Assembly: GCA_003279655.1 (NCBI GenBank)
Contig: QCHI01000001.1
Location: 124,001-188,000 of the forward strand
Reading direction: 5' to 3'
Length of the DNA stretch: 64,000 nucleotides
From: Prochlorococcus sp. AG-402-A21
GTDB taxonomy: Bacteria; Cyanobacteriota; Cyanobacteriia; PCC-6307; Cyanobiaceae
Shown here: positions 34,634-47,536 of the stretch, one piece after another
Layout of the letters: every line of letters starts with the position of its first letter
Position numbering within the stretch: position 1 is the first letter of the stretch
The notes under the pieces: model-generated
Told to the model about the DNA's origin: nothing
What the model saw: only the letters and a program-made list of their open reading frames with translations
Database searches by the model: none
Made by a program: the position numbers and the translations under genes

Positions 34634-34864
34634 TTAATTACTTATTCTATTCATTTAATAAGATCTCTCATTAGGAATATTCAATCTAATTCTCTCTAAA
34701 TTCTTTAATGACTCAGGAGTCAGATCTAGATTGATAATAATTCTTTAAGAAACATCAACAGATTGAGAATGTATTGTGTAATATTTACTCACGTTCAGCT
34801 CTACTAGAGTCGCAGTTAGATTCAAGCCATGGAACGGGGACTTGAACAATGTCATCTTATTTTA

Positions 34865-35005
34865 ATGGCTGAACTTACTTACAGAGGACTTAAGTACACT
34901 CAAACTAAATCTGCTAAGGGCTCACAAGAGGTGCACTTGCAATATTGTGGTCATGAAATTATGAGCAAGAGAATTCATGAAGCCATGAAAGCAGAAATGG
35001 GTTAA
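34865..35005 (+). CDS. DUF4278-like small protein (46 aa)
   Basis: Reads MAELTYRGLKYTQTKSAKGS and ends HEIMSKRIHEAMKAEMG. The LTYRG-x-Y motif at the N-terminus marks the cyanobacterial DUF4278 family. Family function is unknown. It has its own upstream region of about 230 bp without any other recognisable feature apart from a tgactc/gagtca dyad near 34710. Confidence 0.6.
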   Translation: MAELTYRGLKYTQTKSAKGSQEVHLQYCGHEIMSKRIHEAMKAEMG

Positions 35006-35173: not shown

Positions 35174-35383
35174 ATGCAATACGAGCCAGGGACAATAGAT
35201 TGCCATGTCTTCTTAGAATGCAAAGAACAAATAGAAAAAATGCTACTTAGATTATACAAAATAGAAAATACTGAGCATATTTGTGATCAACTTCAATCTG
35301 TTCATCAACAAATAGAAGGTATGCACGAGTTAAAAAAAATTAAACGAAAAAAGATTATTTCTAATGAGACCTTAAGTAAATAA
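35174..35383 (+). CDS. Small hypothetical protein (69 aa)
   Basis: Begins MQYEPGTIDCHVFLECKEQI and continues as mostly helix-forming sequence with a Lys-rich end (LKKIKRKKIIS). The composition could fit a short coiled-coil protein. No family is recognised. Preceded by a very AT-rich stretch. Confidence 0.5.
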   Translation: MQYEPGTIDCHVFLECKEQIEKMLLRLYKIENTEHICDQLQSVHQQIEGMHELKKIKRKKIISNETLSK

Positions 35384-35478
35384 AATCAAAAATTACTCTA
35401 ATTATTGATAGATTTTTATTTTTGTATCAATTAAGTCTTAACTTATTCAACTAAATTACCTATAACTGTTTTATCAGA

Positions 35479-35539
35479 AAACCCGTTCCAAAGTTTTCTG
35501 TAGGGAGGTCAGTACTACTGGGAAGGGTTTTGACCTCCC
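35479..35539. ncRNA. Possible structured RNA: two interlocked helices (pseudoknot or switch)
   Basis: aaacccgttcc (35479-35489) pairs with ggaagggttt (35521-35530), with G35485 bulged. gggaggtca (35503-35511) pairs perfectly with tgacctccc (35531-35539). The strands interlock (A, B, A', B'), so they form an H-type pseudoknot or two alternative folds. No base separates A' and B', which makes a full pseudoknot sterically tight and favours a switch. No protein is encoded here. The GC-rich block contrasts with the AT-rich surroundings. Strand is not fixed. Confidence 0.45.
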
Positions 35540-35570
35540 TCCCTAATTTTAAAGATAAAAAATAAATATA

Positions 35571-35777
35571 TTAATTAAATCCTAGTTTCAAAGTCCCCCA
35601 AAGATCAAATGCTCCAAATAAAAAAGCTATAAAAACCAAGTCCCATGCTTTCTGCTTAATAGCCCAAGGAGCAAAAAAGACCTCACCGATCCCATGAAGA
35701 GCTGCTCCAAATCCTGGATGATCTAAAACCAAAAGACCATGAGAAAATAGAAACAATCCGCTAGCAAAGTATCTCAA
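35571..35777 (-). CDS. Small hydrophobic hypothetical protein (68 aa)
   Basis: Begins MRYFASGLFLFSHGLLVLDH and contains two hydrophobic segments (about 4-18 and 46-62) separated by ALHGIGEVFFAPWAIKQKAW. It is probably a small membrane protein. No family is recognised. The composition is more protein-like than expected by chance in such AT-rich DNA. Confidence 0.55.
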   Translation of the reverse strand: MRYFASGLFLFSHGLLVLDHPGFGAALHGIGEVFFAPWAIKQKAWDLVFIAFLFGAFDLWGTLKLGFN

Positions 35778-45826: not shown

Positions 45827-47536
45827 ATGCCTTTCAAAATTTCTCGCCAAGCTTATGCAGAGACTTATGGTCCAACTAAAGGAGATCGAATAAGACTTGC
45901 CGATACAGACTTAATCCTTGAAGTAGAGGAGGACCATACTCACTATGGAGACGAAGTTAAATTTGGTGGAGGCAAGGTTATTCGTGATGGGATGGGACAA
46001 TCACAACAAAGTAGAGACAATGGTGTAGTAGATACAGTTATCACAAATGCACTAATCTTGGATTGGTGGGGAATTGTTAAAGCTGATATTGGCATTAAAG
46101 ATGGAAAAATCTCAGGCATCGGAAAAGCCGGCAATCCTGATACTCAAGAAGGTGTGAACATTATTGTAGGAGCCAGTACAGAAGCAATCGCAGGAGAAGG
46201 AAACATTATTACTGCAGGAGCTATTGATAGTCATATTCATTTTATTTGTCCACAACAAATAGAAACTGCTTTAGCTAGTGGGGTTACCACAATGCTTGGA
46301 GGAGGCACTGGTCCAGCGACAGGCACTAATGCAACAACATGTACACCAGGGGCATTTCACATCTCAAGAATGCTGCAATCAGCAGAGGGATTTCCTGTGA
46401 ATCTGGGGTTCTTTGGGAAAGGAAATGCAACCAACAAAGCAGCATTAGAGGAACAAGTAAGAGCAGGTGCTTGTGGGTTAAAACTTCATGAAGACTGGGG
46501 AACGACTCCAGCCTGTATTGATTCGTGCCTAAGTGTGGCAGACCAATTAGACGTACAAGTTTGTATTCATACAGACACCCTAAATGAAGCTGGTTTTGTT
46601 GAAGATACAATTCGAGCAATAGCAGGAAGAACAATTCATACATTCCACACAGAAGGAGCTGGAGGTGGTCACGCTCCCGACATTATCAAAATTTGTGGAG
46701 AATCAAATGTGATCCCCAGCAGTACAAATCCTACTAGGCCTTTTACTCTAAATACTCTTGAAGAGCATTTAGACATGTTGATGGTTTGTCATCATTTGGA
46801 TCCCAAAATTCCAGAAGATGTAGCATTTGCTGAGTCAAGAATACGTCGTGAAACTATTGCCGCTGAAGACATACTCCACGATTTAGGAGCCTTTTCTATT
46901 ATTGCAAGTGACTCCCAGGCTATGGGTAGAGTTGGGGAGGTTATTAGTCGGACTTTCCAAACTGCTCATAAAATGAAAGTTCAAAGAGGGGCCTTACCAG
47001 AGGATAATCAAAGGAATGATAATCATCGCCTGAAAAGATATATCTCAAAGGTAACTATTAATCCAGCGATAGCTCATGGAATAAGTAGTCATGTTGGGTC
47101 GGTAGAAGTTGGCAAACTAGCAGACTTAGTACTTTGGAAGCCTGGCTTTTTTGGAATTAAACCTGACTTAGTAGTCAAAGGAGGATCTATCTCATGGGCT
47201 CAAATGGGAGATGCAAATGCCTCCATTCCTACTCCACAACCAGTCCATGGTCGTCCAATGTTTTCTTCCTTTGGAAAGGCAATAAATCCTTCATGCCTAA
47301 CTTTCTTAAGCGAGAGCGCAATAGAAGCTGGAGTTCCTAAACGACTCAAATTGGAACGCTCTTATGCTCCCGTTAAAGACACAAGAAAAATATCTAAGCA
47401 ATCAATGAAACTAAATGATGCAAGACCCAAAATCGAAGTCGACCCTCAAACATACGAAGTTTTTGCAGATGGAGACCTTTTGACTTGTGAACCAGCTGAA
47501 TCACTACCACTTGCGCAAAGATATCTATTGCTTTAA
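45827..47536 (+). CDS. ureC: Urease subunit alpha
   Basis: Catalytic subunit that hydrolyses urea to ammonium and carbamate. The nickel ligands and active-site residues are visible: [10 protein letters not shown], the carbamylated lysine in [37 protein letters not shown], the VCHHLD flap region with the conserved His, and [10 protein letters not shown]. The 569-residue length is normal. It ends the ureDABC set. Confidence 0.98.

Follow-up and report, generated by a model that had tools for sequence, protein, structure and literature searches.

Small RNAs of Prochlorococcus and related systems

According to Steglich 2008 (PMC2518516), regulatory proteins are very scarce in Prochlorococcus, which is thought to rely on RNA regulators. 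The same study reports the small RNAs (sRNAs) Yfr8–Yfr21, with their MED4 coordinates in its Table 1, and, in the passages used here, presents Yfr13 as the only new ncRNA of the study with NATL homologues. Further members of the group, namely Yfr28, Yfr29 and Yfr106–Yfr108, are treated in Lott 2020 (PMC7368042), where Yfr28 is given as an RNA of 72 nt that is induced by nitrogen loss. NsiR4 of Synechocystis and NsrR1 of Nostoc are, in turn, described as NtcA-regulated sRNAs (PMC6778093). A structural comparison is offered by H-type pseudoknots and kissing-loop RNAs, in which two loops or arms can pair in the order A-B-A'-B'.

The element discussed here lies in a window of 64,000 nucleotides of Prochlorococcus sp. 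AG-402-A21, which is the whole stretch of DNA that was analysed and to which the position numbers refer. It is intergenic and is placed between an ORF of 69 aa (35174-35383, +) and one of 68 aa (35571-35777, -), which converge, so that their 3' ends face it. An earlier, sequence-only reading had described a block without any coding frame between a small plus-strand gene and a small minus-strand gene, and this agrees with the ORF list, which holds these two ORFs and none of at least 40 aa over 35479-35539. Like the Yfr sRNAs, which occur in the same organisms, the element is short, intergenic, structured and clade-limited. It lies elsewhere than Yfr28, which is located between ftsQ and ftsZ. 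With NsiR4 and NsrR1 it has in common a proposed control by NtcA, a likeness by description only, and with H-type pseudoknots and kissing-loop RNAs it shares the potential for pairing between two loops or arms in interlocked order. Unlike the latter, its conserved fold consists of two plain hairpins, with the possible extra contact limited to one branch. The element is probably a gene for a trans-acting sRNA of about 70 nt, with two hairpins, a seed loop and, in relatives of the high-light-type (HL) genus (g18), an NtcA-type promoter.

The model that we propose starts from the computed conservation, homology, fold and upstream box, and from these we infer that the element is transcribed, and from which strand, as well as its control by nitrogen, the role of the seed and the masking. 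Transcription would begin at the element's own promoter, at about 35473 on the plus strand, and the RNA would fold into two hairpins, the 5' one presenting the loop CCGUUCCAAA and the 3' one, which is GC-rich, closing the molecule. As a seed, this loop would then pair with target mRNAs. In the HL relatives, an NtcA box at -41.5 would be expected to raise the RNA under nitrogen shortage. In the genus of the window, the right half of the box differs, which makes the activator less certain. Only there does hairpin 2 have a loop that complements the seed, and this loop may mask it; the pairing corresponds to helix A of the sequence-only reading.

Comparison with Rfam and with Yfr8–Yfr21 placed the element in neither. 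Rfam release 15 gave three matches at gathering score in the whole window, none of them over 35472-35545, and a permissive scan of 35380-35600 returned nine matches with E values of 0.7 to 9.1, all below gathering score. In 13 MED4 stretches that cover Yfr8–Yfr21, the loop occurs only with at least two mismatches, and a covariance model built from HL sequences only (R2) has no match at E ≤ 10. Identity with Yfr13 was considered and rejected, as the MED4 stretch does not bear it out. In the genome that we take to be MED4 (G187), R2 places the element at G187:C1:689152-689217; the genomes that are presumably MIT9515 (G292) and SS120 (G050) gave no R2 match. In G002, a complete genome of the window's genus that is presumably NATL2A, the equivalent site is G002:C1:1537150-1537217. 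Although set apart from Yfr8–Yfr21, the element may well be an sRNA of a later catalogue. Yfr22–Yfr27 are reportedly those of Voigt 2014.

Table 1. Parts of the candidate sRNA locus (window positions) and the second locus of HL relatives.
Feature	Position	Strand	Basis
Conserved upstream box GTATCAATTAAGTC	35424..35437	+	Mean identity 99% at 35426-35440 (33 distinct segments)
-10 element TATAAC of the putative promoter	35461..35466	+	Sequence; conserved with few exceptions in the alignment
Candidate sRNA, about 70 nt (start placed from the -10 element, end from hairpin 2)	35473..35545	+	Conservation, fold z -3.2, covariance models
Hairpin 1, stem 35475-35482 with 35493-35500	35475..35500	+	99.5% of cells paired, 25 distinct sequences
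Loop CCGUUCCAAA, proposed seed	35483..35492	+	Identity 0.97 (35471-35485) and 1.00, rounded (35486-35500), 33 segments
Hairpin 2 (helix B of the sequence-only reading), 35502-35511 with 35531-35540	35502..35540	+	Pairing kept in relatives
Inner extension of hairpin 2 (ACU/GGU, CU/AG)	35514..35528	+	RNAalifold; A-U to G-C on both sides in one sequence
GGGAAGGG, complement of the seed loop	35520..35527	+	No change in any of its 8 columns (25 distinct sequences); absent in HL copies
Helix A of the sequence-only reading, entire, 35478-35489 with 35521-35531	35478..35531	+	Less stable, conserved only in part
Second HL locus (L331 828-914; also L326, L327, L329, L330, L337)	G154:C1:1088027-1088113		

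Conservation of the element

Conservation was measured against the window over 33 distinct segments, namely those that fit a text pattern. In addition to the values in Table 1, 35516-35530 has an identity of 0.98 and is flanked by two blocks of 0.88. Identity is low further out, with 0.58 at 35366-35380 and 0.60 at 35546-35560, and reaches 78% at 35561-35575. The upstream ORF has blocks with values between 0.73 and 0.95 ahead of its last bases, and values of 0.91 to 0.98 are reached at the end of the downstream ORF. In effect, the candidate sRNA is framed by less conserved stretches, but it is not the sole well-conserved part of the region. Few parts are as well conserved as the loop CCGUUCCAAA, and most HL copies, together with the second copies found in HL genomes, carry this same loop on stems that differ between subfamilies. 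A coding peptide was rejected as an explanation, as an ATG-led short frame is present in some HL copies and missing in others.

Perfect stems of at least 9 bp, with at least 5 G/C and within 70 nt, number four in the window and one to three per shuffle (n=6); a single GC-rich stem is therefore only mildly unusual by itself. It is conservation, and not the strength of its stems, that sets the element apart.

Distribution and homology

The element is single-copy in its own genome, where one match was obtained. In the genus of the window, 35 of 41 genomes have a full match; among those with a completeness of 90% or more it is 16 of 17, the exception being G023. When 400 genomes of the family were searched by BLASTN, 90 were matched at E ≤ 0.01, in g18 mostly through a 22-nt core. 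R2 matched 102 of the same 400, including 61 of the 68 genomes of g18, some of which had contributed to the model, and 35 of the 41 genomes of the window's genus. In 34 of these 35, the match falls where the element is known to lie (E 4e-6 to 0.02), and in the remaining one, G012, it is elsewhere. Since R2 had not seen this genus, these matches provide independent evidence of homology. One genome of g28 was also matched at the known place, and five more matched genomes belong to g4 (two), g31, g35 and g39. R2 gave no match in G023 or in seven of the 68 HL genomes. In the opposite direction, R1 was run over 300 genomes; it found the g18 copies weakly (E 0.009-0.09) and also gave matches in g3, g6, g11 and g47 at E 0.015-0.093.

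A search with the core pattern yielded at least 118 matches in named genomes, and the 80 titled matches listed all belong to Prochlorococcus or Synechococcaceae; a second core match is present in G013. Some matches look like chance, namely the GC-rich L222 and L226, one of the two in g22, and those with three mismatches in g10, g40, g45 and g48, which have no second hairpin. A phage origin was rejected: neither the core nor the hairpin of the second copy has an exact match in viral contigs, and phage records gave only short weak matches (18 records, none covering 80%).

One of the two g4 genomes, G099, has a locus (L328, G099:C5:37012-37080) that reaches 31.3 bits with R2, as strong as the copies in the window's genus. 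This locus has a changed loop and a GTT-N8-TAC box upstream, and it may be a distant member of the family. The other, G126, scores 23.7 bits but does not have a seed-type loop. The matches in g31, g35 and g39 are weak (18.8-22.3 bits), and the full pattern is absent from the ones in g35 and g39. A second R2 match, of 24.3 bits, occurs in G005.

Additional matches were observed in HL genomes. In one of them, G353, R2 has three matches (L231, L324 and L325; C1:184465, C1:191007 and C4:122218), with scores of 83.1, 62.9 and 45.8 bits, and two of the three loci are 6.5 kb apart. Separately, six HL genomes have a second related locus (Table 1) in which the loop is carried by another stem. Three of the six stems are perfect ACAGAAU/AUUCUGU helices, two have an inner U-U and one has an inner C-C, in locus counts in which some places occur more than once.

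Putative promoter and nitrogen control

The candidate is assigned to the plus strand because the conserved box, TATAAC and the 5' hairpin follow one another in plus-strand order. A scan with the sigma-70 consensus found no plus-strand promoter at the element. It found two minus-strand promoter-like sites, with 0.9 expected; one of the two, at 35574-35546, points into the element from the other side and lies in a poorly conserved stretch.

Canonical NtcA-activated promoters are stated to have the NtcA consensus centred at -41.5 (PMC3898017). In the HL relatives, GTA-N8-TAC is found in 107 of 120 distinct 75-nt upstream sequences, which come from related genomes and are not independent, and in 1.8% of shuffled upstreams. 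It sits 55-57 nt before the CCC of the loop. The 13 remaining HL upstreams differ by one base of the right half, 12 of them having GTA-N8-CAC and one AAC. Counted from the start that is suggested by TATTAA, the centre of the HL box is at -41.5, and the HL copies thus present the GTAN8TAC arrangement of an NtcA class II promoter. The second HL copies also have a GTT/GTA-N8-TAC box upstream, which in five of the six is 4 nt further out. From these sequences, control by nitrogen through NtcA is likely in the HL relatives.

In the window, a conserved box occupies the place of the HL box, but it is GTA-N8-GTC, centred at -42.5, and only its left half fits NtcA. The right half differs from TAC throughout the alignment, so that the class II arrangement is not found in the window's genus, where nitrogen control is uncertain. 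Three LLI-type genomes (L386, L387 and L389, at 1501-1519) have a box similar to that of the window, with three mismatches, about 230 nt upstream of what is, by its sequence, a Pcb-type antenna gene. Because a similar box precedes this gene, another regulator is possible in the window's genus.

The sRNA might, for instance, be controlled by phosphorus or light and not by nitrogen, which we consider unlikely. The gene upstream of the element encodes a phosphate-type ABC ATPase, probably pstB as named from its sequence, in three of the four HL genomes with listed neighbours. Nevertheless, the passages of Steglich et al. used here (PMC2518516) report that no ncRNA of MED4 responds to phosphorus starvation, but the present RNA is outside their list. 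The case for light lies in the likeness to the conserved site upstream of the antenna gene, but such sites are barely above the control (18 places in five genomes, five of which are the element's own box, compared with 13 for the reversed pattern). In addition, for both phosphorus and light, the HL box fits the consensus and the position that are given for NtcA (PMC3898017).

Two hairpins and the interlocking helices

In the sequence-only reading, two strong pairings, A and B, interlock as A-B-A'-B', cannot easily form fully at once, and suggest a two-state RNA or an ncRNA with a tight pseudoknot. Both pairings do exist at that place. Helix A joins 35478-35484 and 35486-35489 with 35521-35531, for 11 bp with G35485 bulged, and helix B joins 35503-35511 with 35531-35539, for 9 perfect bp, or 10 bp with A35502-T35540. 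The interlocked order is as described, and the two cannot both be complete, as their 3' arms share T35531. There is, however, a third strong pairing that was absent from that reading. This is hairpin 1, of 8 bp (CAGAAAAC/GTTTTCTG), which uses the 5' arm of helix A and is compatible with helix B. The minimum-energy fold consists of two plain hairpins, namely hairpin 1 (CAGAAAAC, loop CCGUUCCAAA, GUUUUCUG) and helix B with an inner extension, and the second of these is probably the 3' end hairpin of the sRNA. On the plus strand, the fold reaches -28.9 kcal/mol, compared with a shuffle mean of -19.4 (z -3.2; 1 of 200 shuffles does as well). The minus strand, over a slightly longer stretch, is less clear (z -2.2; 6 of 200 shuffles).

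In the two-hairpin fold, the 5' arm of helix A falls in the stem and loop of hairpin 1, and its 3' arm falls in the loop of hairpin 2 plus the first base of the 3' arm of the hairpin 2 stem. When helix A is enforced alone, the energy is -16.7 kcal/mol, which is 12.2 worse than that of the two hairpins. As a contact from loop to loop, helix A could keep 6 bp around the bulged G, or 7 if the innermost pair of hairpin 1 opens. For the two loops, the register chosen by duplex prediction has 8 bp and a single G-A mismatch, at -10.6 kcal/mol. On this modelling, a loop-loop contact of 6-7 bp is possible in the window's genus.

Pairing in relatives was followed in an alignment (A2) of 25 distinct sequences, 24 from the window's genus and one from g28 (L058). 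This alignment leaves out G012, G032 and G028 (L031 and L057), the latter being without the bulged G and off the text pattern. The two-hairpin structure has 99.5% of 425 cells paired in A2; changes in its stems are one-sided, to G-U, with two broken cells, one of which is in hairpin 2. The structure made of helices A and B has 98.3% of 475 cells paired. In helix A, the seven core pairs (CCC + UUCC) are complementary in 24 or 25 of the 25 sequences, and 6 of them break the pair 35480-35529 (columns 9-58); that is, the G-C-rich core is kept in the window's genus and the A-U part is not. In G028, where the bulged G is missing, the 7-bp core is perfect. Covariation, which had been suggested as a check on the interlocking helices, gave no compensatory change in A2: two-sided changes occur in neither helix, and 10 of the 19 pairs never vary. 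H-type pseudoknots with compensatory changes in both helices are, accordingly, not what A2 presents. The change in the inner extension of hairpin 2 (Table 1) is the sole two-sided one in the window's genus.

For the HL relatives, a second alignment (A3) contains 33 of 50 distinct sequences, which differ by at least two bases and some of which have ends shifted by one base. The two-hairpin structure has 94.3% of 561 cells paired in A3, compared with 37-53% for slid partners. In hairpin 2, two pairs have changed on both sides, in three cells, and 5 and 0 of 500 shuffles reach this. Partners slid by -2 and -3 columns match the two-sided count, with two pairs and four and three cells, and because of this the changes are weak support. 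It was also observed that A3 columns 30-35, 38-44 and 63-68 hold two AGGUCU repeats that compete for one 3' AGACCU arm, and that each pairing has some two-sided change. RNAalifold prefers the first repeat paired with the 3' arm; this alternative has one two-sided change and is 2.9 kcal/mol less stable in one HL sequence. As modelled, the HL copies may be two-state through these repeats.

That the element of the window is a two-state RNA or a tight pseudoknot, with the change between A and B as its function, is quite improbable. The near-complete complementarity of the helix A core and the invariance of GGGAAGGG are what this reading would expect, and the energy of the loop duplex and the perfect core of G028 agree with it, but helix A is far less stable alone, one of its pairs is broken in 6 of 25 sequences, no two-sided change occurs in it, and the HL copies, which keep the loop of hairpin 1, are without the GGGAAGGG partner. 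The invariant pairs of helix A are uninformative either way. Single-strand folding and conservation favour two separate hairpins over interlocking helices, and helix A is at best a side contact between their loops. In the genus of the window, the energies and the broken pair thus speak against both the tight pseudoknot and the A/B switch. The suggestion of an ncRNA has fared better, as the upstream box, the order of the parts, the structure and the sequence are conserved across two genera. Our confidence in the sRNA is nevertheless slightly reduced, because the slid-partner control equals the two-sided count and because conservation is also high outside the RNA on one side.

It is less probable still that there is no independent RNA and that the locus is a structured end of transcription common to the two converging genes, for, although it lies between the 3' ends of these small ORFs and its GC-rich hairpin can be read from both strands, a scan for intrinsic terminators (GC stem plus T run) gave 0 sites in 35380-35620, conservation of the upstream box equals that of the hairpins, and the HL copies lie beside different genes yet keep the box, the -10 element and both hairpins. 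Many HL copies have a T-rich stretch after hairpin 2.

Candidate seed, targets and possible masking

Exposed loops that serve as seeds are familiar from other bacterial sRNAs. As CCGUUCCAAA is conserved and single-stranded in the fold, a seed is its natural reading, and by analogy it is proposed to act as such on target mRNAs. A shared target was not found among perfect complements of the 9-nt seed (TTGGAACGG), which number 60 in eight genomes, compared with 96 for the reversed pattern; nine of the 60 are the element or its second copy. A wobble-tolerant 12-nt pattern occurs at 53 places in 10 genomes, and 10 of these places are the element. The 43 others compare with 17 for the reversed control, an excess that may come from codon usage. 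When 26 of the 60 complement sites were inspected, 23 lay in or close to a sense open frame, with some of these frames short and doubtful. Two sites are at W-N-G codons of hli-like genes. A complement of the seed also recurs at one fixed position within a psbB-like gene, and does so in each of the five HL genomes searched (L352, L359, L361, L371 and L378; 1501-1509). Both gene names were read from the sequences.

In the window's genus only, GGGAAGGG may mask the seed through the loop-loop contact, an idea drawn from its invariance in A2 and its absence in HL copies. A wider reading, which is tentative and rather doubtful, would join these parts into one nitrogen-controlled sRNA family that spans HL and LLI-type genomes and includes the second copies, with a shared, nearly invariant seed loop on changing stems and, in the LLI-type, a built-in anti-seed kissing mask that targets or proteins could open. 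An sRNA that is conserved across two genera of this abundant phototroph, with a nearly invariant loop and, in HL strains, an NtcA-type promoter, would connect post-transcriptional control with the nitrogen regulator. A genuine masking contact would provide a case of intramolecular gating of an sRNA seed.

Other RNA motifs in the window

Two other RNA motifs were observed in the window. A glutamine-II riboswitch aptamer lies at 34789-34846 (+), 0.6 kb upstream of the candidate sRNA and at the start of a small ORF (listed 34829-35005). At 45982-46268 (-), there is a match of 94.9 bits to the Rfam family 5_ureB_sRNA (RF02514), which is unexpected here, this being a family of Helicobacter.
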